Part shown: in pieces, positions 31,326-44,703 of the stretch
Position numbering within the stretch: the first letter of the stretch is position 1
Layout: every line of letters begins with the position of its first letter
NCBI RefSeq assembly: GCF_023656745.1
Contig: NZ_JAMOKO010000005.1
Coordinates: 86,122-150,121, forward strand
DNA: 64,000 nucleotides
Source of the DNA: Collinsella sp. BG-O-102
GTDB lineage: Bacteria > Actinomycetota > Coriobacteriia > Coriobacteriales > Coriobacteriaceae
Reading direction: 5' to 3'
Notes under the pieces: model-generated
What the model saw: only the letters and a program-made list of their open reading frames with translations
The model's database searches: none
Told to the model about the DNA's origin: nothing
Program-made: the position numbers and the translations under genes

Positions 31326-34300
31326 TCACGCTTCGCCCCAGAATCTATGGGTGCTGCGCAGGAGCTTCGCAGTTTTCTCCTCAGCTGCCGCAACGTCGGC
31401 CTCCTCAGCCTGCCAGGTCCAGTTGCCCGTGGCCACGCCCGGCACGTTCATACGTGCATCGTCGCCCAGTCCTAGCACGTCCTGCAGCGGCATCATCACG
31501 AGCGGAGCATCGCTGGCCAGGGCGTTGCCCATGAGCTCGCTTGCCAGTTCAATGCCGCTCGGCTCGTCGCCGCCTGCAAAGGAGTGTGTGCACCATCCGG
31601 CAAGCGTCGAGGTGTCGTGCGTCGAGGTATACAGGATCTTGCCCGGTGTGGGATGAATTCCGCAACGAACGTCGTAGTCGCTAAACTCCAGCACGTCCAT
31701 GCCGGGGAAACCGCAGGTCGATGCCATGGCGCGAACACCGGGCGTCAGATAGCCCAAGTCCTCAGCGATAAAGTTGAGCGGACCCAGCTCGTCGTAGGCG
31801 GTCTGGAACAGGTCCTTGCCCGGGCCTGCCAGCCAACGCCCGTCGGCGCATGCCTTACCCGCGGGAATGCTGAAATAGCTGTGGAAGCCCAGGAAGTGAT
31901 CCAGGCGCACGCGGTCGTAGAGCGAAAACGCACGACGCAGGCGATCCATCCACCAGCTATAGCCGTTCTGCTTCATGTGGTCCCAGCGGAACGTTGGGTT
32001 GCCCCACACCTGGCCCTCGGGCGCAAAGTTGTCGGGCGGCGCACCGGAAATCTCAATCGCCTTGCCGGTATCGGACAGCCAGAAGTTCTCGGGTTCGCTC
32101 CACGCGTCTGCCGAATCGTCGGACACGTACATAGGAATATCCCCGATAACCTCGATGCCCTTCTTGTGCGCATAGTTCATGAGCTCGCACCAAGCGAGGT
32201 CAAAGCGGTACTGCATGTACGCCTGAAGCTCGGCCTCGTTGTGGAAGCGCTTGTCGTCGATCAGATGTTCGTTGTAGCGCGCGACATCTGCCGGCCAATC
32301 ATGGCGCGACTCGCCCTCAAAGTACTTTTTAACGGCCATGTAGACGCAGTATTTCTCGAGCCAATCGGCATTGCGATGTTTAAACGCGGTGTACAGCGGA
32401 TCGGCATCCTCGCCGCCGCGGGCCTTCCAGGTCTCAAAGTCGGCTGCCAGCTCTTCGTGGCTCTCGGGTAGCAGGTCGATATTGCCTGCAAAGGCCGAAG
32501 GACCGGCATAAGGGGAGCGGAAGAAGTCCGTGGGGTTGACGGGAAGAACCTGCCAGTAGCGCATGCCCATGGCGGCCAGATGGTCGATAAAGCGACGCGT
32601 GGGTGCGCCGATCGTACCGGGCTTGCCGTCGTCGGTCGGCACCGATGTGATATGGCACACAACACCCGCACCGTGATCGAGCGGCTCCTGCAGGCGCTGC
32701 TCGGCGTGGTGATAGATGATCGACGAGCCCAGCGGATACAGATCGAGCGTGACCGTACCGTTATGAATCTCACACTCGTGACCGCTGATCACGTCACTCG
32801 CACATTCGCCGAGCGCCGGAATCGTCACGCGATGCGAATTGCGCAGGCTGCGGTTGATGATGACGGTCGCGGACTCGCCGTCTTTACCGGTACGGTTGTA
32901 GGCCAGCACCTCGTCATTGAGCGCGAAAGCCTTGATTTCACCGTCGATCATAAACGGCAGCGCGCGGCGCACAGCAGATGCGTTCTTGACGATCGCGAAC
33001 GTATCGAAGTCGTGCAGGTCTTCCTTGGTCGGCATGGTGCGGCGATTACCCGGATCGGTGAGTCCCTCCAAGCCGTACTCGTCACCGTAATAGATTGAGG
33101 GAACGCCCGGGAACGTCATCTGCATGAGCGTCGCCAGCCAAAAGCGGCTCTTGGCCAGGCCCATGGAGTTCTCGTCCAGGCGCCATTTGCTGCGCTCACT
33201 CTCGGGCAGCTGCGACTCGTCGGGGCCACCGCCGAGCACCGAGATAATGCGCGGGCGGTCGTGGCTCGACAGCAGATTGAGCGCGCAGGATAATGCCTCG
33301 CGCGGGTAGTTCTCGCGCAGGGTCTCGATATCCTCGGCAGCTTGGTAGGCGTTTTTGTAGCCCATCAAAAAGCCGATGACCATGTCGCGGAAGGGGTAAT
33401 CCATAGCAGAGTCCAGCTCGGAGCCCTGCAGGTAGCGACGCAGATGGCCGTAGCTGATCTTGTTGGAGGCGTCTTCCCAGACCTCGCCGAGCAGCAGCGC
33501 GTCGGGCTTTTCGGCAAGTACGGCCTTTTTGATCTCGGTCAGGAAATCGTCCGAAAGCTCGTCGGCCACATCCAGGCGCCAGCCGTGAGCGCCGGCGCGC
33601 AGCCATTTACGAATGACGCCGTCCTTGCCCAGGAGCCGCTCGCGTACCAGTTCGGAGCTCTCATTGATGGCGGGCATATTGCCCACGCCCCACCAGCAGT
33701 CGTACGAGCCGTCCTCGTGGAAATAAAACGCATCGCGCCACGGCGAATCCTCGCTCTGCCACGCGCCCACGCCGGGGTAGTTGCCGTAGCGGTTGAAGTA
33801 GATCGAATCGTCGCCCGTGTGGTTGAACACACCGTCCAGAATGATGGAAATGCCCAGCTTCTCGGCCGCCTCGCACAGCTCGGTAAAGTCCTGCTCGGTG
33901 CCCAGAATCGGATCGATCTTGGTGTAATCTGCGGTGTCGTAGCGGTGGTTGCTCGCGGCTTCAAAAATGGGGTTGAGGTAGATGGCTGTAAAGCCCAGCT
34001 CAGCGATGCGGGGCAGGTCTTCCTGGATGCCCTTGAGCGAGCCGCCGTAGAAGTCCCAGGTCTTGATGGAGCCGTCCTCGGCGCGCTCGTATACGGGCGG
34101 CTCGTTCCAGTCCTCGACCATGCGGCGCTGGATTCCGTTGCGCGGCTTTTCGACTTCGGTCAGCGTGCGCTCGCGCCAGTGCTCGTCGCGGGCGTAGCGA
34201 TCGGGGAAGATCTGGTAGACCATGCCGCGCTCGTACCACTCGGGTCGAACTTCGCGGTGCTTGTAAACGGTAATCTGGAACGACGGGACCTCGGCGTAGT

Positions 34301-34622
34301 TGTAGGTTACGCCCTCGCCACCGGTGCGGCCTTGTGGCGCACCCAGGCGGACCACGGGCTGGCCCTCGATATTGCAGATAAAGCTGTACCAAATAAGACA
34401 GGGCTCGGTGCACTCAAGCTCTACGGTAAATATGCCGTCGCCCTCGTGCGTCATTGGATACCGAGACTCACCGATCTCATCGACCCAGGTCCGGAGCGTA
34501 AGCGTCGCCTGCACGGGATCGGCATCCTCCAGAATCACGGAGAGCGAAAGGGTAGTTCCTGTGGTCACAGCGCCAAACGGAGTGCGAAACTGCGGCAGAC
34601 GGCTGTTGTGTATCAATCTCAT
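31326..34622 (-). CDS. GH13 amylase/neopullulanase fused to GH77 4-alpha-glucanotransferase
   Basis: 1098 residues with two catalytic units. Residues about 1-640 have an N-terminal beta domain and a GH13 barrel: YQIFPDRYA, GVFNHTGDDS, GWRLDVADEL (nucleophile Asp), LLGEVWED (acid Glu) and LLSSHDRPR (third Asp), as in cyclomaltodextrinase/neopullulanase. Residues about 645-1098 are a GH77 (MalQ) barrel: VIGDIPMYVSDDSADAW, VRLDHFLGF (nucleophile), FIAEDLGY (acid) and TSTHDTSTLAGW. It should hydrolyse malto-oligosaccharides or alpha-1,6 branches and recycle the products by disproportionation, supplying the debranching step otherwise missing from the adjacent glycogen operon, which has no glgX. 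Transcribed separately from that operon. Confidence 0.9.
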   Translation of the reverse strand: MRLIHNSRLPQFRTPFGAVTTGTTLSLSVILEDADPVQATLTLRTWVDEIGESRYPMTHEGDGIFTVELECTEPCLIWYSFICNIEGQPVVRLGAPQGRTGGEGVTYNYAEVPSFQITVYKHREVRPEWYERGMVYQIFPDRYARDEHWRERTLTEVEKPRNGIQRRMVEDWNEPPVYERAEDGSIKTWDFYGGSLKGIQEDLPRIAELGFTAIYLNPIFEAASNHRYDTADYTKIDPILGTEQDFTELCEAAEKLGISIILDGVFNHTGDDSIYFNRYGNYPGVGAWQSEDSPWRDAFYFHEDGSYDCWWGVGNMPAINESSELVRERLLGKDGVIRKWLRAGAHGWRLDVADELSDDFLTEIKKAVLAEKPDALLLGEVWEDASNKISYGHLRRYLQGSELDSAMDYPFRDMVIGFLMGYKNAYQAAEDIETLRENYPREALSCALNLLSSHDRPRIISVLGGGPDESQLPESERSKWRLDENSMGLAKSRFWLATLMQMTFPGVPSIYYGDEYGLEGLTDPGNRRTMPTKEDLHDFDTFAIVKNASAVRRALPFMIDGEIKAFALNDEVLAYNRTGKDGESATVIINRSLRNSHRVTIPALGECASDVISGHECEIHNGTVTLDLYPLGSSIIYHHAEQRLQEPLDHGAGVVCHITSVPTDDGKPGTIGAPTRRFIDHLAAMGMRYWQVLPVNPTDFFRSPYAGPSAFAGNIDLLPESHEELAADFETWKARGGEDADPLYTAFKHRNADWLEKYCVYMAVKKYFEGESRHDWPADVARYNEHLIDDKRFHNEAELQAYMQYRFDLAWCELMNYAHKKGIEVIGDIPMYVSDDSADAWSEPENFWLSDTGKAIEISGAPPDNFAPEGQVWGNPTFRWDHMKQNGYSWWMDRLRRAFSLYDRVRLDHFLGFHSYFSIPAGKACADGRWLAGPGKDLFQTAYDELGPLNFIAEDLGYLTPGVRAMASTCGFPGMDVLEFSDYDVRCGIHPTPGKILYTSTHDTSTLAGWCTHSFAGGDEPSGIELASELMGNALASDAPLVMMPLQDVLGLGDDARMNVPGVATGNWTWQAEEADVAAAEEKTAKLLRSTHRFWGEA

Positions 34623-34840: not shown

Positions 34841-37111
34841 CTAGCGGCGCTTGCGGGTGGCCGTTGCCTTGCGGACGGACGTCTTCTTGGTCGGAGCCTT
34901 TTTCTCTGCCGGAGCGGCGGGGGAGACCGGAGTCTCCTTGGCGGGCTCGGGCTTGGCCTCGTCCTTCGGGGCAGCCTTTACCTCGGCCTTGGGCTCCTCT
35001 TTGGCAGCAGCAGGCTTAGTCTCTGCCTTGGGAGTTGCGGCCTTTGTCGTGGTCTTCTTGACCGTCGTCGTGCGCTTTCGCGTGGTGGCCTTGGCAGCGG
35101 ACTTGGCCTCGACGGTTGCCTCCGCCTTGGACTCGGCAGGCGTCTCCTCGACTTTGGCGGCTGGCTTTGCGGCTGCCTTGGTCGTGGCTGCCTTGGTGGT
35201 CGTCGACTTCGTAGCCGTGGTCTTCTTGGCTGCCGTTGTCTTCTTGGCGGTCGTGGTCGTCTTCTTGGCAGCAGTCTTTGCCGGAGCCTTGGCGGCCGGT
35301 TTGGCCTCAGCGACCTTGGCCTTTACCTCGGGAGCAGCCTCGGCTTCGGCGGCTTTCTTGGCAGCGGCGGTCGTGCGCTTGCGCGTGGTCGTTGTCTTGG
35401 TAGCGGTGGTTTTGGTTGCCGCCGCCTTGGTCGCAGTAGCCTTCTTAGCTGTCGTCTTGCGAGTCGTGGTCTTCTTTGCCGCAGGCTTCGCAGCAGGCTC
35501 GGGCTCAGGAGCAACCTCAGCCTTCACCTCAGGCTCGGCCTTTGCGGGCTCAGCTTCATCCGGCTTCTCCTCGGCCTTGGGCTCCTCAGCGGCCACCGGC
35601 TCAGCAACAGCCTCTGGCTCGTCGACAACCGCCGCCGGCCTCTCAATCTCCGGGTGCATAAAGAAGTACAGGTCCAGATACTTATCGGCCGAGCGCGTCC
35701 AGCTAAAGTCCTGGCTCATGGCCTGCGTGACCAGCTGGTTCCATGCGTCGCGGTTATCCCAGAACAGACGCGCCGCGCGGAATACCGCATCGCCCATCTC
35801 GTCGCCGTTAAAGTTGGTAAACGAGAAGCCCGTGCCCTCGCCGGTAAACTCGTTATACGGGATCACGGTGTCCTTCAGGCCACCGGTCTCGCGCACGATG
35901 GGCAGGGTGCCGTAGCGCATGGCGATGATCTGCGACAGGCCGCAGGGCTCAAACTTCGAAGGCATCAGGAACATATCGGCGGCGGCGTACATGCGCTGCG
36001 ACAGCGCAGGATCGAACTCGATGCGCGCGGCCATGGTGCCGGGGTACTTGTCCTGGAAGTAGCGCAGACCGTCCTCGTAGTCGCGGTCGCCGGTGCCCAG
36101 CACGGCCACCTGAACGCCGCCGGACAGGATGCGGTCGAGCGCGTACATGACCAGGTCCATGCCCTTCTGGCGCGTCAGGCGCGTGACCATCACCATAAGC
36201 GGGCGGTCGTCGCGCACCTCGAGCCCCAGTTCCTCCTGCAGCTTGGCCTTGCACGCGGCCTTGCCGGAACGGTCGTCAACCGTGTAGTTGGCGGCAATGC
36301 GCTTGTCGGTTGCCGGGTCAAAGGCCGCCACGTCAATGCCGTTGAGGATGCCCTGCAGCGCGTAGGAGCGCTCGCGCAGCACACCGTCCAGACCCTCGCC
36401 AAACTCGGGCGTCTGGATCTCGTTGGCATAGGTGGGGCTCACCGTGGTGATGGCATCGGCATAGTGCAGCGCGCCCAGCATGTAGTTGATGCTGCAGGCG
36501 TCGCAGCGCAACTGCGTGGCGGCCGCCGGAATATGCGCTACACCCAGGATGTCCTCCATCACGGTGTCGCTAAACTGGCCCTGGAACGCCACGTTGTGGA
36601 TCGAGAACACAGTCTTGACGCGGTCGTACAGCGGCAGGCCCTGGTAGAACTCGCGCAAGAACACGGGTGCCAGTGCCGTTTGCCAGTCATTGCAGTGCAG
36701 GATGTCGCACTCAAAATCGGCCGGCAGGTGCTGCAGGCTCTCGGTGATGGCCTTGGAGAAGAACGCAAAACGCTCGCCGTCGTCAAAGAAGCCGTACGGA
36801 TAGTCGCGCGCAAAGTAGCGCTCGTTGTCCACGAACATATAGGTGACGCCGTCGTGCTCGAGCTTCTCCAGCCCGCAGTACTCGTTGCGCCAGCCCAGGC
36901 TCACGTAAAAGTCGGCAAAGTGCTCCATCTGCGCCTTGTACTCGTCCTTGATGGTGGCGTACTTGGGCACCATTACGATAACCTCGGCGCCGGCGCGCAC
37001 AAGCGCCGCAGGCAGCGAGCCCGCCACGTCGCCCAGGCCACCGGTCTTAACAAACGGTGCGCACTCGGCCGAGGCAAACACGATCTGCATCTTTTTGCTG
37101 GAATCTGCCAT
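34841..37111 (-). CDS. glgA: Glycogen synthase GlgA with long histone H1-like C-terminal tail
   Basis: 756 residues. The first ~490 are a normal ADP-glucose-dependent GT5 synthase: KTGGLGDVAGSLP near the N-terminus, HCNDWQTAL, SIHNVAFQGQF, and the C-terminal PSKFEPCGLSQ and RETGGLKDTV. Standard bacterial GlgA ends there. An extra ~265 residues follow: first ~55 rich in Glu, Pro and Ala, then ~200 made almost only of Lys, Thr, Ala, Arg and Val in repeats such as KKTTTRKTTAKKA and TTRKRTTAAAKK, ending TRKRR. It is expected to be disordered and strongly basic. The frame is uninterrupted. ATG 37111 is chosen (GGAG 5 nt upstream) over the ATG at 37123. Last gene of the glycogen operon. Confidence 0.95.
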   Translation of the reverse strand: MADSSKKMQIVFASAECAPFVKTGGLGDVAGSLPAALVRAGAEVIVMVPKYATIKDEYKAQMEHFADFYVSLGWRNEYCGLEKLEHDGVTYMFVDNERYFARDYPYGFFDDGERFAFFSKAITESLQHLPADFECDILHCNDWQTALAPVFLREFYQGLPLYDRVKTVFSIHNVAFQGQFSDTVMEDILGVAHIPAAATQLRCDACSINYMLGALHYADAITTVSPTYANEIQTPEFGEGLDGVLRERSYALQGILNGIDVAAFDPATDKRIAANYTVDDRSGKAACKAKLQEELGLEVRDDRPLMVMVTRLTRQKGMDLVMYALDRILSGGVQVAVLGTGDRDYEDGLRYFQDKYPGTMAARIEFDPALSQRMYAAADMFLMPSKFEPCGLSQIIAMRYGTLPIVRETGGLKDTVIPYNEFTGEGTGFSFTNFNGDEMGDAVFRAARLFWDNRDAWNQLVTQAMSQDFSWTRSADKYLDLYFFMHPEIERPAAVVDEPEAVAEPVAAEEPKAEEKPDEAEPAKAEPEVKAEVAPEPEPAAKPAAKKTTTRKTTAKKATATKAAATKTTATKTTTTRKRTTAAAKKAAEAEAAPEVKAKVAEAKPAAKAPAKTAAKKTTTTAKKTTAAKKTTATKSTTTKAATTKAAAKPAAKVEETPAESKAEATVEAKSAAKATTRKRTTTVKKTTTKAATPKAETKPAAAKEEPKAEVKAAPKDEAKPEPAKETPVSPAAPAEKKAPTKKTSVRKATATRKRR

Positions 37112-37134
37112 ATTGTCTCCCATGTTGCAATTCG

Positions 37135-37201: not shown

Positions 37202-38329
37202 TTAACGTACGATGGTGGTGTCGGAAGTTAACGGAGCCTTGCCCAGCACCAGGATGTTCTCGGGCGTTCCGCGAAGCTCGGTGTTGGTGGGAACCACGTT
37301 GTTCTTGTCCAGAATGGCGTTCTCAACGCGTGCGCCGCTCTTGATGACACAGCTCTGGTTGATGATCGAGTTGGTCACCGAGGCGCCCTCCTCGACCACG
37401 ACGCCGCGCGACAGGATCGAGTTGCGCACGGTGCCCTTGATGATGCAGCCGGCCGAGATGATCGAGTTGCACGCGTGGCTGCCCGTCGCATAGCGCGAAG
37501 GCGGCACGTCGTGGGCCTTGGTCAGGATCGGGCGCTCGGGATCGAAGAGCTGGTCGGCTACGGTCTGGTCGAGCAGGTCCATGCTGCGGCGGTACAGCGA
37601 CTTCTCGCTAAACACGCCCACGACCTCGCCCTTGTACTCGTAGCTGCACACGTCGATGTTGCCAAAGTCGCCCTGGAGTGCCTCGAGCAGGTCCAGATAG
37701 TCGGCGGCCTGGTAGTGGTCGATAATCTCGAGCAGCGTCTCGCGGTTGACGATGCAGCAGTCCATAGAGGCGTTGTCGCCGTACACGACGCCGGCGCTCA
37801 CGCCCGTCAGGCGGCCGTTCTCGTTAATCTCGAGTTTGGTCTCGTCATCGACGTTGCGCGTGGCCTTGCAGTACACCACGGTCATCTGAGCGCCGGAGTT
37901 CTCGTGTGCGCCGATGATGGTGTTGAGGTCCATGTTAAAGATGATGTTGGTGCCCATCATCACGACATAGGGCTTGTCCGAGCGCTGGAACAGCGTCTTG
38001 TTGGAGATGATGTCGCGCAGCAGGAAGCGCATGCCGCCCTTGGTGGTGCCATACGCGTTGCCGGGCACCATGAACAGGCCGCCCTTCTTGCGGTCCAGGC
38101 CCCAGTCCTTACCCGAGCCCACGTGGTCGATCAGCGAGCGGTAGTTTCCCGGCATGACGACGCCGACGGTCTTGATGCCGGCATTCATCATGTTGGACAG
38201 CGGGAAGTCGATCAGGCGGTAGCGGCCCAAAAAGGGAACGGACGCGATGGGACGGTCCTTGAGCAGCACGCTGCCGTAAGTCGAAGAGTAGTTAGCGGTG
38301 ATATAACCGATGGCCTTGCGATTGATCAT
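37202..38329 (-). CDS. glgD: Glucose-1-phosphate adenylyltransferase regulatory subunit GlgD
   Basis: 375 residues. Nucleotidyltransferase domain followed by a left-handed beta-helix (IISAGCIIKGTVRNSIL; NQSCVIKSGARVENAIL). Where GlgC has [11 protein letters not shown], this protein has MMGTNIIFNMDL, so the catalytic aspartate of that motif is lost, and the N-terminal GGxGxRL-type loop is also absent. This fits GlgD, the non-catalytic partner of GlgC known from Firmicutes. ATG 38329 follows AAGGGGG; the stop of glgC is 4 nt upstream, so the two are translated together. Confidence 0.92.
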   Translation of the reverse strand: MINRKAIGYITANYSSTYGSVLLKDRPIASVPFLGRYRLIDFPLSNMMNAGIKTVGVVMPGNYRSLIDHVGSGKDWGLDRKKGGLFMVPGNAYGTTKGGMRFLLRDIISNKTLFQRSDKPYVVMMGTNIIFNMDLNTIIGAHENSGAQMTVVYCKATRNVDDETKLEINENGRLTGVSAGVVYGDNASMDCCIVNRETLLEIIDHYQAADYLDLLEALQGDFGNIDVCSYEYKGEVVGVFSEKSLYRRSMDLLDQTVADQLFDPERPILTKAHDVPPSRYATGSHACNSIISAGCIIKGTVRNSILSRGVVVEEGASVTNSIINQSCVIKSGARVENAILDKNNVVPTNTELRGTPENILVLGKAPLTSDTTIVR

Positions 38330-38333
38330 CGGA

Positions 38334-39482
38334 TCATTCCCCCTTCCCGATAACGACGTCATTTCCAACGACGGCCGTATCCTTGGTGGTATCGACAGAG
38401 CCGAGCTTCACGCCCTCTTCGACCGTGGAGTTCTCGCCCAAAATAGCGCGGCAGATGTGCGCACCGCTCTTGACGTGCGCGCCCGGCAGCAGCACGGAGT
38501 CCTCGACCACGGCGCGCTCCTCGATGATGACATCGGTCGAAATGATCGAGTGGCGAGCGGTGCCGTAGATCTTGCAGCCGTTGGAGACCAGGCAATCGTC
38601 CAGGCGGCCGTCCGGGCCAATGTAGTGCGGCGGACGCGTGGTGATGTTGGACATGATGGGGAAGTGCTTATCGAACAGATCGAACTCGGGGTTGTTGCCC
38701 AGCAGGTCCATCGAGGTCTCGTGGAAGCTGGCGATGGTGCCGACGTCCTTCCAAAAGCCGTGGAACTCGTAGCTGTACAGGCGCTTGCCCTCGCCGAGCA
38801 GCTTGGGGATGATGTCCTTGCCAAAGTCGTGGCTCGAGCGCTGGTCCAGAGCGTCCTCTTCGAGCGCCTCGATCAGCACGTCGGCCGAGAAGATGTAGAT
38901 GCCCATGGACGCGAGGTTCGAATCGGGCTTATCGGGCTTCTCGGTGAACTTGGTGATGCGGCCGTCCTCGGGGTCGGTGGTCAGGATGCCAAAGCGGCTG
39001 GCCTCCTCCCACGGCACGGGCATAACGCTCACCGTGAGGTCGGCGTTATTCTCAATGTGCGTCTTGAGCATCTTGCGGTAGTCCATGCGATACAGGTGAT
39101 CGCCCGAAAGAATCAGGACGTACTTGGGGTCGTTGGCCTTGATGTAGTCGAGGTTCTGCGTAATGGCGTCGGCCGTGCCCGCATACCAGGCGCCGCCGGT
39201 CTGCGTCTCGTACGGCGGCAGGATCGACACACCGCCGTCGCGGCTGTCCAGATCCCATGCCTCGCCGGAGCCCACGTAGGCATGCAGCAGGTAGGGGCGA
39301 TACTGCGTCAGAACGCCCACCGTGTCGATGCCCGAGTTGGAGCAGTTGGACAGCGAAAAGTCGATAATGCGGAACTTGCCACCAAAGCTAACCGCCGGCT
39401 TAGCGATCTTTTGGGTGAGTGCCCCCAATCGGCTGCCCTGTCCTCCTGCGAGGAGCATCGCGATGCATTCTTTCTTACTCAT
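38334..39482 (-). CDS. glgC: Glucose-1-phosphate adenylyltransferase catalytic subunit GlgC
   Basis: 382 residues. It makes ADP-glucose, the donor for GlgA. N-terminal [55 protein letters not shown] with catalytic Asp, and KFTEKPDKP are intact, with a C-terminal beta-helix. ATG 39482 has GGAGAAATCG ahead of it. A short hairpin (GACGGGCG/CGCCCGTC, ~39522-39550) lies in the 108-nt gap after glgP. Confidence 0.95.
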
Positions 39483-39590: not shown

Positions 39591-42017
39591 TTACGCGTGC
39601 CAGATCTCGTCGCGGTACTCGCGAATGGTTCGGTCGCTCGAGAACCAGCCCGAGGAGGCGGTGTTGAGCAGAGCCTTGCGGTTCCAGGTCTCCTGGTCGC
39701 CATAGCTGCCGGTGAGCTTCTCCCACGCATCCACGTAGCTGCGGAAGTCTGCCATGACCAGGTCGGGGTCGTTGTTGTTCATGAGCTCGTTGTAGATGCT
39801 CTCAAAGTTGCCCGAAAGGCCGGCAAACGTGTTGTCCTTGAGCTCGTCCATCACGCGGCCCAGGCGCTCGCGATCGTTGTTGAGCGTATCCCAAGCAAAG
39901 TAGTTGTTCGACGCCCAGAGCTGCTCGACCTCGGGGGCGGTTAGGCCAAAGATGGCCTCGTTCTCGCGACCGGCCAGGTCGGCGATCTCGATGTTGGCGC
40001 CGTCGAGGGTACCCAGCGTAATGGCGCCGTTCATCATGAGCTTCATGTTGGACGTGCCCGAAGCCTCCTTGCCGGCCGTGGAGATCTGTTCCGAGATCTC
40101 GGCGGCGGGGTAGATGAGCTGGGCGTTGCTCACGCGGAAGTTGGGGATAAAGCAGACCTTCATGACCTCGTTGACGCGCGGGTCGTTGTTGATGACGTCG
40201 GCCACGGAGTTAATGAGGCGGATAGTCTCCTTGGCAAAGGTGTAGCTCGAGGCAGCCTTGCCGCTAAAGATGAAGGTCGTCGGCGTCACGTGGAAGTTGG
40301 GATTCGCGATGCGACGGTTGTAGATGTCCATCACCTTCATGATGTTCATGAGCTGGCGCTTGTAGGCGTGGAAACGCTTCACCTGGACATCGAAGACGGT
40401 GTTGGGGTCAATGACCAGACCGGTCTCGGCCTTAACGTAGGCGGCCAGGCGCTCCTTGTTGGCGCGCTTGGAGGCACCCACGGCCTTGAGGAACTCGGTG
40501 TCGTTCTGGAACTCCTTGAGCTTCTCCAGCTCAAAGGCGTCCTTCAGCCAGCCGTCGCCAATGGCCTCGGTCACGAGCTTGGCGTAGGTGGGGTTGGCCT
40601 CGGCAAAGAAGCGACGGTGCGAGATGCCGTTGGTCTTGTTGTTGAACTTTTCGGGCGTCAGGGCATAGAAGTCCTTGAGCACGATGTTCTTAATTATGTC
40701 GGAGTGGATCTTGGCCACGCCGTTGACGCTGTGGCTGCAGATCACGGACAGGTTGGCCATGCGAATCTCGCCGTCCCACAGGATGGCGGTCTGGCGCAGA
40801 CGCTCCTGCCAGCCCTCCTGCGTGGTGTCGAACGACTCGTGCCAACGACGGCTGATCTCGTCGATGATCTGGTACACACGGGGGAGGAGCTTGGAGAACA
40901 TGCCGATGGGCCACTTCTCCAGGGCCTCGGGCAGGATCGTGTGGTTGGTGTAGCTCACGACCTGCGTCACGATGCTCCAAGCGTCATCCCACTCGAGCTT
41001 TTTCTCGTCGATGAGGATGCGCATGAGCTCGGGGCCGCACATGGCGGGGTGCGTGTCGTTGGTGTGGATGGCCACAAACTGCGGCAGCAGCTCCCAGTTC
41101 TCGCCGTGCTCCTTCTCAAAGGTGTCGAGCAGGCTGTAGATGCCGGCCGAGACAAACAGGTACTCCTGCTTCAGGCGCAGCAGACGGCCGTGCTCGCCGG
41201 CGTCGTTGGGGTAGAGGATGGCGCTGATGGCCTCGGCCTCGGCGCGCTCAGCATCGGCCAGGGCATAGTCGCCGCGGTTGAAGGCCTCAAGGTCAAAGTG
41301 CTCCTCGACCGGCTCGGCGGCCCAGACACGCAGCTTGTTGACGGTCTCGCCGGCATAGCCCACCACGGGGATGTCGTAAGGGACGGCCAGGATGTCCTGC
41401 GTGTCCACCGTGCGGTAGAACGTGCGGCCGTTCTCCTCAAAGCCCTCAACATGGCCACCAAACTTAATGGTCACGGCCTTGTCCTGACGACGGACCTCCC
41501 AGGGATAGCCGTGGGTGAGCCACTCGTCGGTGGCCTCGACCTGGCTGCCGTTGACGATCTCCTGCTTAAACAGGCCGTAACGGTAGCGCATGCCGTTGCC
41601 GTAGCCGGCGATGCCCTCGGCTGCCATGGAATCCAGGAAGCATGCGGCCAGACGGCCCAGGCCACCGTTGCCCAGCGCCGGATCGGGTTCCTGGTTCTCG
41701 ATGACGGAAAGGTCGAAGCCCATGTCGTCGAGCGCCTCGGCGACCATGTCGCGCACGCCAAAGTTAAGTAGGTAGTTGTCGAGCAGGCGGCCGATCAAAA
41801 ACTCGATCGAGAAGTAGTACACGCGCTTTTTGCCCTCGGCGGTCACGCGGGCGTCGCTCTTGGTGGCAACGGTGCGTGCCTTCTCGGCTACGAGCTTGGC
41901 CAGGGCGTTAAAGCGGTCGAGGTCGCTGGCGGCCTCGACGCTCTTGCCGCTAATGCTCATGACGGCATCGCGATAGAGCTCGGTAAACTCCTGCTTGTTG
42001 TCGAAGATCTTATTCAT
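39591..42017 (-). CDS. glgP: Glycogen/starch phosphorylase GlgP
   Basis: 808 residues, GT35. It releases glucose-1-phosphate from glycogen. LGNGGLGRLAACFLDSMA near residue 115, the sugar-binding region TNGISHRRF, VKRFHAYKRQLMN and the pyridoxal-phosphate site EASGTSNMKLMMNGAITLG with its lysine are all present; full family length. ATG 42017 follows AAAGGA. It lies in the same operon as the biosynthetic genes, between glgB and glgC, so synthesis and breakdown are co-transcribed. No Lys-rich tail on this enzyme. Confidence 0.95.
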   Translation of the reverse strand: MNKIFDNKQEFTELYRDAVMSISGKSVEAASDLDRFNALAKLVAEKARTVATKSDARVTAEGKKRVYYFSIEFLIGRLLDNYLLNFGVRDMVAEALDDMGFDLSVIENQEPDPALGNGGLGRLAACFLDSMAAEGIAGYGNGMRYRYGLFKQEIVNGSQVEATDEWLTHGYPWEVRRQDKAVTIKFGGHVEGFEENGRTFYRTVDTQDILAVPYDIPVVGYAGETVNKLRVWAAEPVEEHFDLEAFNRGDYALADAERAEAEAISAILYPNDAGEHGRLLRLKQEYLFVSAGIYSLLDTFEKEHGENWELLPQFVAIHTNDTHPAMCGPELMRILIDEKKLEWDDAWSIVTQVVSYTNHTILPEALEKWPIGMFSKLLPRVYQIIDEISRRWHESFDTTQEGWQERLRQTAILWDGEIRMANLSVICSHSVNGVAKIHSDIIKNIVLKDFYALTPEKFNNKTNGISHRRFFAEANPTYAKLVTEAIGDGWLKDAFELEKLKEFQNDTEFLKAVGASKRANKERLAAYVKAETGLVIDPNTVFDVQVKRFHAYKRQLMNIMKVMDIYNRRIANPNFHVTPTTFIFSGKAASSYTFAKETIRLINSVADVINNDPRVNEVMKVCFIPNFRVSNAQLIYPAAEISEQISTAGKEASGTSNMKLMMNGAITLGTLDGANIEIADLAGRENEAIFGLTAPEVEQLWASNNYFAWDTLNNDRERLGRVMDELKDNTFAGLSGNFESIYNELMNNNDPDLVMADFRSYVDAWEKLTGSYGDQETWNRKALLNTASSGWFSSDRTIREYRDEIWHA

Positions 42018-42111: not shown

Positions 42112-44370
42112 TTACGCTTTCTTGGCAGGAGCCTTAACAGCAGCTGCCTTGGCCTTGGGAGCAGTCTTTTTGGTGACCGCCTTCTTGGCCGTGGTGGACT
42201 TGACCGAAGCCCTGGCAGCGGGCTTGGCGGTCTTCGCCTTAACCGGAGCCTTCTTAGCAGCCGCGGCCTTGGGCTTCACCGAGGACGTGCGCTTACGCGC
42301 CGCCTTCTTGGGCTTCTCGACCACCGGCGGCTTGTAGCTGCTGGGACCGCGGCGCTTAAGCACCACGCCTGCCAGGCCAGGCACCTTCATCTCGATAGAG
42401 TCCATCTGCCCGTTCCAGGGATAGGGTTCGCTCGAGCAGGTGTAGGGCTCCTCGCCGGCATAGCCGCTGCCGCCAAACTCGGGACGGTCGGAGTCAAAGA
42501 TGACCTCCCAGTCGCCCTCGCGCGGCACTCCCACGCGGAAGCTCTCGTAGCTCGCCGGGTCAAAGTTGATCAGAATTACCAGGTCGTCATCGACGTCCTC
42601 GCCCTGACGCACAAAGCTCACGATGGACTGCTTGGAGTTGTCCGCGTCGATCCAGGTAAAGCCGTCGTCGGTGTATCCGCGCTCGTACAGGGCGGGCTCG
42701 GCGGTGTATAGGTGGTTGAGCGCCTTGATATACGCCTGATGATGACGGTGGGTCTCATACTCCTCGGTCAGGAACCACTGGATGGATTCGTAGTAGCGCC
42801 ACTCAATAAACTGGCCGATCTCGTTGCCCATAAAGTTGAGCTTGGCACCGGGGTGCGTCATCTGGTAGAAGGCCAGCGTGCGCAGACCGGCAAACTGGCG
42901 CCACCAGTCGCCCGGCATGCGGCCGATGAGCGAGCACTTGCCGTGTACGACCTCGTCGTGGCTTAGCGGGCAAATAAAGTTCTCGGTAAAGGCATACATG
43001 ATGGAGAACGTGAGCAGCCCGTGGTTGCCGGGGCGCCACGGAAAATCGGTCTGCATGTAGTGCAGCGTGTCGTTCATCCAGCCCATGTCCCACTTGTAGT
43101 GGAAGCCCAGGCCGCCGTCCTGCGGCGGATAGGTCACGAGCGGCCACGCGGTGGACTCCTCGGCCATCATCATCACGTCGGGGTAGTGCGCCTCCACAGC
43201 GCAGTTGACCTGGCGGATAAACGCGCTGGCGTCCAGGTCTTCCTCGGTACCGTACTTGTTGAACTTCTTTTGACCGGGATCGTCGATGCCAAAGTTGAGG
43301 TACAGCATGCTGGACACGCCGTCCATGCGAATGCCGTCCACGTGGAAGTTCTCGAGCCAGTACAGCACGTTGGAGACCAGGAAGGAGCGGACCTCGCCGC
43401 GGGCGAAGTCAAACTTGTGCGTGCCCCAGTTGGGATGAATCTCGTGCTCAAACAGCATATGGCCGTTAAAGGTGGCAAGGCCATGGGAGTCGGCGCAAAA
43501 ACCGCCGGGAACCCAGTCCATGATCACGCCAATGCCTGCCTCGTGGCATGCATCGATAAAGTGCATGAGCTGCTGGGGGTTGCCGTAGCGCGACGTGGCG
43601 GCGTAGTAGCCGGTCGTTTGGTAGCCCCAGGAGCCGTCGAAGGGATGCTCCATGAGCGGCATGACCTCAATATGCGTATAGCCCATGTCGTGCACGTAGT
43701 CCACGAGTTCCACCGACAGGTCGTCGTAGGTATAGAACTCGCCGCGCTGCGCGGGGAAGGGGTCCATGGGGCCAGGGTAGTTGCCGTACTCGTCCGGCTC
43801 GCCCTGCGGAGCGTCGCCGTGGCGCTTCCACGAGCCAATATGCACCTCGTAGATGTTGAGCGGCTGCGACATGTGGTTGTGATCGGCGCGGCGCTTGAGC
43901 CACGCGGCGTCGTTCCACTTGTAGCCATCGAGGGTCCACAGCACGCTCGCGGTACCCGGGGGGCACTCGGCCTTAAAGGCATACGGATCGGCCTTGTAGA
44001 GCTTTTCGCCCTCGTTGGTCTCGATGAGATATTTATAGAGCTGCCCCTGCTCGGCGCCAGGAATAAAGCCTTCCCAGATAGCGCTCGTATGCACGGGCAC
44101 CAGCGGGTTGGCTTCCTCATCCCAGTCGTTAAATTCGCCAATGACATGGACACTCTTTACGTCGGGCGCCCAAACGCAAAAGCGCCAGCCGCGTGTGCGC
44201 TGCTGCGTGTCGGGATGCGCGCCCATCTTTTCCCAGCTGCGCTCCCACGTGCCGATGCCAAACAGATAGACATCGTCCTTGGTGAGCTCCGGTGCGTGCG
44301 GAGCCGGTTTGCGGGTTGCGGGCTTTTTAGCCGTTGGCTTTAGCTTTGTATCGCTCACGTTTGATCCCAT
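42112..44370 (-). CDS. glgB: 1,4-alpha-glucan branching enzyme GlgB with Lys/Ala-rich tail
   Basis: About 752 residues. It introduces alpha-1,6 branches. A short basic N-terminus (KLKPTAKKPATRKPAP) precedes the CBM48-like domain (RFCVWAPDVKSVHVIGEFNDW) and GH13_9 barrel: DGIRMDGVSSMLYLNFG (nucleophile), MMMAEESTAWP (acid) and LSHDEVVHGK. After the final beta domain (LAGVVLKRRG) there is a ~70-residue tail rich in Lys, Ala, Pro and Thr, similar in character to that of GlgA. The start is uncertain: ATG 44370 is used; GTG 44358 has GGGA 6 nt upstream and is a fair alternative. First gene of the glycogen operon. Confidence 0.93.
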   Translation of the reverse strand: MGSNVSDTKLKPTAKKPATRKPAPHAPELTKDDVYLFGIGTWERSWEKMGAHPDTQQRTRGWRFCVWAPDVKSVHVIGEFNDWDEEANPLVPVHTSAIWEGFIPGAEQGQLYKYLIETNEGEKLYKADPYAFKAECPPGTASVLWTLDGYKWNDAAWLKRRADHNHMSQPLNIYEVHIGSWKRHGDAPQGEPDEYGNYPGPMDPFPAQRGEFYTYDDLSVELVDYVHDMGYTHIEVMPLMEHPFDGSWGYQTTGYYAATSRYGNPQQLMHFIDACHEAGIGVIMDWVPGGFCADSHGLATFNGHMLFEHEIHPNWGTHKFDFARGEVRSFLVSNVLYWLENFHVDGIRMDGVSSMLYLNFGIDDPGQKKFNKYGTEEDLDASAFIRQVNCAVEAHYPDVMMMAEESTAWPLVTYPPQDGGLGFHYKWDMGWMNDTLHYMQTDFPWRPGNHGLLTFSIMYAFTENFICPLSHDEVVHGKCSLIGRMPGDWWRQFAGLRTLAFYQMTHPGAKLNFMGNEIGQFIEWRYYESIQWFLTEEYETHRHHQAYIKALNHLYTAEPALYERGYTDDGFTWIDADNSKQSIVSFVRQGEDVDDDLVILINFDPASYESFRVGVPREGDWEVIFDSDRPEFGGSGYAGEEPYTCSSEPYPWNGQMDSIEMKVPGLAGVVLKRRGPSSYKPPVVEKPKKAARKRTSSVKPKAAAAKKAPVKAKTAKPAARASVKSTTAKKAVTKKTAPKAKAAAVKAPAKKA

Positions 44371-44703
44371 CATGACGCGGCAGCGTGTTGCCTTGGTGAC
44401 TAGATGCGAAAGGTCCAAGGCTGCACGAATCGAAGGGACGGCGAAGTTTCTGTGATTCGTTCCACCTCGCGTGCTCGGTGGAACTTTCGGCAAAACTACG
44501 ATAACACCTGTGCGTTAGTTTTATGGACGAAAGCGGATTTGCGCGGGCGTTTAATCGGTAAGCGACATGTTTATACCACTGGCAGATTTGACGTGGTAAA
44601 ACTCTTGACAGTTTTACCAATTTGGGTTTCAAAATTGTTTGGCTGACGTTTGGTAAAACGTTTTTAGCAGGATGTTTACCATTTGATATCGAAAGGTTCG
44701 TTT
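44371..44703. other. Divergent regulatory region between glgB and the HAD gene
   Basis: No gene is seen in this 333-nt interval. It holds a hairpin (GTTCCACC/GGTGGAAC, 44459-44484) on the glgB leader side, the cluster of TGGTAAAAC/GTTTTACCA motifs on the HAD side, and a TTGACA hexamer at 44605-44610 lying between two of the motifs. It is locally AT-rich compared with the surrounding genes. Confidence 0.6.
44594..44681. promoter_or_regulatory. Cluster of four TGGTAAAAC-type motifs with a candidate promoter
   Basis: TGGTAAAAC at 44594-44602, GTTTTACCA at 44611-44619, TGGTAAAAC at 44651-44659 (within GGTAAAACGTTTTTAGC, close to a LacI-type palindrome about CG) and GTTTACCA at 44674-44681. TTGACA at 44605-44610 could be a -35 box, with CAAAAT at 44630-44635 as a poor -10 at long spacing. 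A repressor bound here would block the HAD gene and perhaps glgB. Confidence 0.5.

Follow-up and report, generated by a model that had tools for sequence, protein, structure and literature searches.

The window, i.e., the whole stretch of 64,000 nucleotides of Collinsella sp. BG-O-102 DNA that was analysed, contains a glycogen operon on the minus strand, which encodes GlgB, GlgP, GlgC, GlgD, GlgA and a GlgX/4-alpha-glucanotransferase fusion. The closest named GlgA proteins are those of Collinsella aerofaciens strains, which are 97-98% identical to the GlgA of the window. The genes and the features within them are as follows:

42112-44493, minus strand: GlgB, operon gene
44299-44346, minus strand: short stretch of basic residues close to the N-terminal end of GlgB, KLKPTAKKPATRKPAP, at aa 50-65 if the longest frame is translated
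42349-44274, minus strand: catalytic part of GlgB, aa 74-715 (GlgB models NF008967 and NF003811, both above cut-off)
42115-42348, minus strand: GlgB tail, aa 716-793, 78 residues, 25 basic and 1 acidic (translation and charge count)
39591-42017, minus strand: GlgP, operon gene
38334-39482, minus strand: GlgC, operon gene
37202-38368, minus strand: GlgD, operon gene
34841-37123, minus strand: GlgA, single open frame of 760 aa
35666-37123, minus strand: catalytic part of GlgA (GT5), aa 1-486 (NF001898, Pfam Glyco_transf_5, AlphaFold2)
34844-35665, minus strand: GlgA tail, aa 487-760, predicted to be disordered, in frame with the catalytic part
35489-35653, minus strand: acidic block of the GlgA tail, aa 491-545, with 18 acidic residues against 5 basic ones (residue charge count)
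34844-35488, minus strand: basic part of the GlgA tail, aa 546-760, in which basic residues (58) outnumber acidic ones (18; charge count)
34844-34897, minus strand: C-terminal 18 residues of GlgA, APTKKTSVRKATATRKRR, near-invariant in 21 strain tails
31326-34622, minus strand: 1098-aa fusion of a GlgX/maltodextrin-glucosidase-like part and a 4-alpha-glucanotransferase, directly downstream of GlgA

GlgA and GlgB are both enzymes that act on glycogen. The GT5 domain of GlgA is complete: the glycogen synthase model NF001898 matches aa 12-486 with 663.7 bits (cut-off 603) and is covered from position 1 to 472 of 477, and the catalytic end was set at aa 486, where the best-matching glycogen synthase models end. 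The initial annotation had described a histone H1-like tail of about 265 residues (34841-35640) behind this domain, and an in-frame tail of 274 residues is indeed present, which is basic, rich in K, A and T and conserved. It contains 63 basic and 36 acidic residues (net +27) and is composed of 27% A, 19% K, 18% T, 12% E, 10% P and 4% R. Its acidic block precedes its basic part, as had been noted; the basic part had also been said to consist almost only of Lys, Thr, Ala and Arg, which goes slightly too far, since these four residues account for 78% of aa 546-760 and the remainder is mostly Glu and Pro. In an AlphaFold2 model based on an alignment of 26 rows, the pLDDT of the core is mostly above 85 and that of the tail around 40, with no helix or strand in the tail; the tail is thus predicted to be disordered, and charge and hydropathy analysis agrees with this. 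At the DNA level, the tail contains a single short tandem array (18 bp x 2.8) and mixed synonymous codons, which speak against slippage as its origin. An antisense open reading frame beneath the tail (34851-35915, plus strand) is regarded as a mechanical ORF. No Pfam family, including the HC2-type H1-like nucleoproteins, matched the GlgA or the GlgB tail at E <=10, in a search whose program may filter low-complexity tails, and as a protein query against its own genome the GlgA tail matched only itself. A search for its codon pattern gave 18 matches, of which five fall in the GlgA tail; the other 13 equal the 13 obtained with the reversed control. Among 7,953 proteins scored in a search with tail words, the best 120 all bear glycogen-synthase domains.

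GlgB of the same operon is tailed as well. Its catalytic part is recognised by NF008967 with 811.6 bits (cut-off 577) and by NF003811 with 805.8 bits (cut-off 741), and the short C-terminal extension that follows is basic, while no comparable tail is present on GlgC, GlgD, GlgP or the GlgX-MalQ protein of the window. The tail is a real feature of GlgA without being confined to it: the GlgB tails of this operon and of relatives rule out a GlgA-only feature. Given the N-terminal patch, GlgB is possibly basic at both ends; its true start is uncertain and perhaps lies at the Met at aa 41/42.

The search for the GlgA tail in relatives, which had been proposed at the outset, revealed it in all 43 genomes of the genus with GlgA open frames of 575-986 aa. 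All but two of these genus tails (41) are clean and complete; one of the two runs off a contig end, and the other shows an ambiguous base together with an odd frame. The tail also occurs in g2, g3, g4 and g6, which are other genera of the same family (14 tails from these four); the family, f1, is presumably the Coriobacteriaceae, as it contains Collinsella. This results in 55 distinct complete family tails (41 from the genus and 14 others), which are 105-469 aa long (median 276) and carry a net charge of +6 to +46. The initial annotation had left room for a tail that was missing from close relatives and owed to a frameshift or misassembly; such an origin is excluded by these 55 complete, clean and distinct tails. 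Genus g5 of the same family lacks the GlgA tail in four of four cases, with 7 residues beyond the core. Outside the family, 34 GlgA loci were inspected, some of them chosen because their open frames are long. Of these, 27 stop after 8-16 residues, six extend by 64-296 residues (g21, g61 twice, g68, g90 and g101), and one is cut. Nine GlgAs from Clostridia, Oscillospiraceae and Weissella are tail-less (3-6 aa, and 18 aa in one from Planctomycetota). Tails of three contig-cut loci, L058 of G032, L069 of G248 and L111 of G346, were omitted, and so was L038, which matched poorly and only in part. When 76 GlgA cores were placed in a quick tree, the 54 rows of tailed family proteins formed one clade with an SH-aLRT of 100, outside of which g5 lies. 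The tree requires at least three changes of tail state, which fit an early gain followed by losses or several gains, the root being weak.

Two individual GlgA tails are unusual. That of G042 (L101, G042:C2:793500-797500) has an ambiguous base, beyond which the sequence is untypical, and was excluded from the counts. The 249-aa tail of L079 (G389, genus g101), outside the family, consists of KAEAEKKAAA-type repeats and is more charged-helix-like than H1-like.

Over 21 distinct strain sequences, dN/dS is 0.248 in the tail and 0.043 in the core. In low-gap columns of the 21 strain tails, 36 of 48 K columns and 7 of 10 R columns are invariant, compared with 14 of 73 A columns and 10 of 47 T columns. 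The charge of the GlgA tail is maintained, and its A/T filler drifts. Mutation alone would hardly account for the gap between K and T/A, because A-to-G changes would hit Thr to Ala and Lys to Glu or Arg alike. The acidic-then-basic order is a family feature: the net charge of the first fifth is below zero in 51 of the 55 family tails, and that of the remainder is above zero in all 55. The final 20 residues have a net charge of at least +5 in 55 of 55 family tails, and an [SRT]V[SRAE] element, a loose pattern, occurs in the last 22 residues of 40 of them. These features bear on the proposal that the tails have grown as near-neutral low-complexity sequence and serve, at most, solubility. The wide range of GlgA tail lengths (105 to 469 aa), the freely drifting A and T columns and the tail-less GlgA of g5 are in line with it; however, the dN/dS of the tail, K/R columns that are far more conserved than A/T columns, a near-invariant end, the positive remainder of every family tail and the small number of other proteins with such stretches speak against near-neutral growth, which we consider unlikely, if still worth reckoning with.

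The GlgB tail is more widespread. With a tail defined as at least 25 aa with K+R of at least 20% and a net charge of at least +5, and with a single match read from each genome, including the many that contain more than one, tailed GlgBs were found in 75 of 79 genomes (43 from f1, 34 from f2 and 2 from f3) and in 31 of 32 genera; family f2 includes a contig named Atopobiaceae. The script had called 76 tailed proteins, from which the misplaced G025 was subtracted, and the contig-cut G276 was retained. In the other four of the 79 genomes, the GlgB tail is short or weak, and a few of the tails counted, such as those of G146, G262 and G188, are basic without being H1-like. Among 17 more divergent GlgBs of the class (f3, f6 and f13), G366 has an H1-like tail, G271 has a short basic end and the others have none. 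A GlgB tail common to the whole order was therefore dropped, and the claim was limited to f1, f2 and two f3 genera. None of the best 12 GlgB loci of the phylum outside the class is tailed (0-9 aa), and neither are five GlgBs of Clostridia and Weissella (1-5 aa). Judged from the sequences compared, the GlgB tail is a feature of two families and a few relatives, to which the GlgA tail appears to have been added in the family of Collinsella and a few others.

The GlgB tail is present also where GlgA is tail-less, namely in genus g5 and in many f2 genera. This distribution bears on whether the basic tails might attach to the folded parts of the two enzymes, which are acidic, thereby clustering synthase and branching enzyme. 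Tails sit on precisely the two polymer-making enzymes, and the folded parts have a charge opposite to that of the tails (45 basic and 69 acidic residues in the GlgA core, 60 and 98 in the GlgB part). However, a tailed GlgB beside a tail-less GlgA shows that the pair is not required, and the attraction would be non-specific, because most bacterial proteins are acidic; a cluster held together by the tails is thus quite improbable.

Tails of this kind are rare in the sequence sampled. A strict rule was applied, which demands a 50-aa segment with at least 85% KRATPSE and at least 10 K+R, including 8 K, as well as at least 20 A+T+P. Among the 516 six-frame open stretches of at least 60 aa in the window, only GlgA and GlgB pass, and in 800 kb (35%) of the closed sister genome G002, three of 6,583 stretches pass, namely GlgA, GlgB and DNA topoisomerase I (861 aa). 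A looser rule returned 14 of 6,583 in the same 800 kb, i.e., 11 extra stretches, which include some real genes and K-rich patches internal to other proteins. A general habit of tailing many proteins was not seen in this 35% of G002, and a few more tailed proteins elsewhere are possible. The topoisomerase I (TopA) of the genome that carries the window (L333, G000:C43:105076-107652) ends in a lysine-repeat tail of about 50 residues of the AKKTTAKK type, and among the best 30 TopA loci, all from the genus, 29 are tailed and one is cut by a contig end. Words of the TopA tail recur in the GlgA tail of the same genome: 23 of 51 four-letter, 17 of 50 five-letter and 13 of 49 six-letter words are shared, and in none of these three cases was the number reached in 2000 shuffles (shuffle mean 0.84 for the 13 six-letter words), with the proviso that shuffles destroy repeats and are thus a lenient control for repetitive tails, here and in the two comparisons that follow. 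Sharing between the TopA of G002 and its own GlgB tail is weak (26, 84 and 308 of 2000 shuffles as high for words of four, five and six letters), and the GlgB and GlgA tails have little in common beyond composition (5, 102 and 173 of 2000).

The initial annotation had offered the nucleoid, ribosomes and polyphosphate as targets of the tail. Among these, the nucleoid is favoured as the putative target, because TopA of the same genome has a tail that shares words with the GlgA tail. The same match weighs on the two other targets. Basic disordered tails also bind RNA, and binding of RNA or ribosomes would bring glycogen synthesis close to translation or keep it off the nucleoid; the internal match, however, is topoisomerase I, a DNA enzyme, and we regard RNA or ribosomes as a very unlikely target. 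If the tails bound polyphosphate instead, glycogen synthesis would be drawn to polyphosphate granules and both stores would be organised jointly. A polyphosphate kinase gene is present in the genome (PF02503, 168.8 bits), the E. coli proteins YihI and Rnr are reported to bind polyphosphate through lysine-rich stretches (PMC12345225), and AlgP, a protein with an H1-like tail, is described as located on polyphosphate granules (PMC9239181). Nevertheless, the tail most like that of GlgA in its own genome belongs to a DNA enzyme, and the tails are tied to polyphosphate no more than to any polyanion, so that polyphosphate as the target seems unlikely.

With the nucleoid as the favoured target, we tentatively propose that the tails of GlgA and GlgB bind the nucleoid and that growing glycogen granules are thereby held on, and divided along with, the chromosome, which accounts for the findings better than the alternatives considered here and which we regard as a serious possibility. 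The tails would bind DNA without sequence preference through their Lys and Arg residues, and the folded parts would sit on the growing glycogen, so that each enzyme would bridge granule and nucleoid. Such a bridge would distribute granules along the nucleoid rather than at a pole. The acidic block may keep the basic part off the acidic enzyme or adjust its binding. With somewhat more reserve, it is conceivable that Collinsella and its relatives possess a built-in tether between glycogen and chromosome, with GlgB tails in two families and GlgA tails in addition in that of Collinsella, through which both daughters would inherit the store. Several observations count against a tether: the GlgA tail is missing in g5 (4/4) and in 27 of the 34 loci outside the family, GlgB tails are short or weak in four of 79 genomes, not H1-like in some others and few among the divergent GlgBs, the looser rule finds 11 extra stretches, and a polyphosphate kinase is present. 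The proposal is further weakened by the GlgB tail, which has little beyond composition in common with the TopA or GlgA tail.

GlgA carries what is found in H1-like granule tethers, a long, basic, K/A/T-rich C-terminal tail that is predicted to be disordered, and GlgB has a lysine-rich tail of similar kind. For PhaF, PhaM and AlgP, a role in anchoring granules of PHB and polyphosphate on the nucleoid has been reported (PMC13052382, PMC9239181, PMC3783465). PhaF and PhaM are storage-granule proteins whose Ala/Lys-rich H1-type C-terminal part resembles the tails of GlgA and GlgB, and they are described as having the N-terminal end on granules and the C-terminal end on DNA (PMC13052382, PMC3783465). 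Their granule part, however, is a phasin or another non-enzyme and their polymer is PHA, whereas the tails described here are fused to glycogen-making enzymes; the tails are compared by type rather than as homologues. AlgP of Pseudomonas aeruginosa resembles GlgA in its long, disordered, K/A/P-rich C-terminal tail, which is reported to be required for even spacing of polyphosphate granules (PMC9239181). It differs in having KPAA repeats on a small helical domain, whereas the GlgA tail is made up mainly of K, T and A, has an acidic lead-in and follows a glycosyltransferase. The lysine-repeat tails of actinobacterial TopA and HupB belong to the same composition class as those of GlgA and GlgB. 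The lysine repeats of Streptomyces TopA have been described as preventing its departure from DNA (PMC7398561), and HupB without its basic tail is reportedly no longer held on the nucleoid (PMC5676037). The folded parts of TopA and HupB, however, also act on DNA. Ordinary bacterial GlgA and GlgB have equally complete catalytic parts but, in the comparison sets from outside the class given above, no tail. We know of no work on DNA by GlgA or GlgB, and to our knowledge the GlgA of E. coli is without such a tail. In E. coli cells in which a csrA mutation leads to overproduction of glycogen, glycogen and GlgA-GFP, which serves as a glycogen marker in this species, have been reported to collect at the old poles, and those cells cease dividing (PMC4836754).

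H1-like tails as such were already known; what appears to be new is their presence on glycogen-making enzymes. A literature search of open-access texts found no report of such tails on these enzymes, two thirds of the text of a 2024 review of prokaryotic alpha-glucan enzymes contain no mention of "tail", "disordered", "Collinsella" or "Coriobacter" (PMC11046441), and the word glycogen does not occur in the text of a 2025 review of organelle positioning (PMC13052382). The placement and inheritance of glycogen in bacteria have been little described, and a tether fused to the polymer-making enzymes would make glycogen inheritance testable by removal of the tail. If the proposal is true, glycogen would join PHA and polyphosphate as the third storage polymer on which an H1-like tail acts, here in bacteria that are common in the human gut, and granules held by the chromosome would likely help both daughter cells to inherit stored sugar.

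Some GlgB loci of relatives have an unusual organisation. In L202 (G276:C2:1-678), the GlgB tail lies at a contig start and is joined to a sequence that we take to resemble the tRNA-binding end of methionyl-tRNA synthetase, which is perhaps due to a misjoin via common K/A-rich DNA or to a genuine fusion. In L356 and L357 (G282 and G275, genus g10), a divergent GlgB and a GlgC-like nucleotidyltransferase are combined in a single open frame of 1061 aa.
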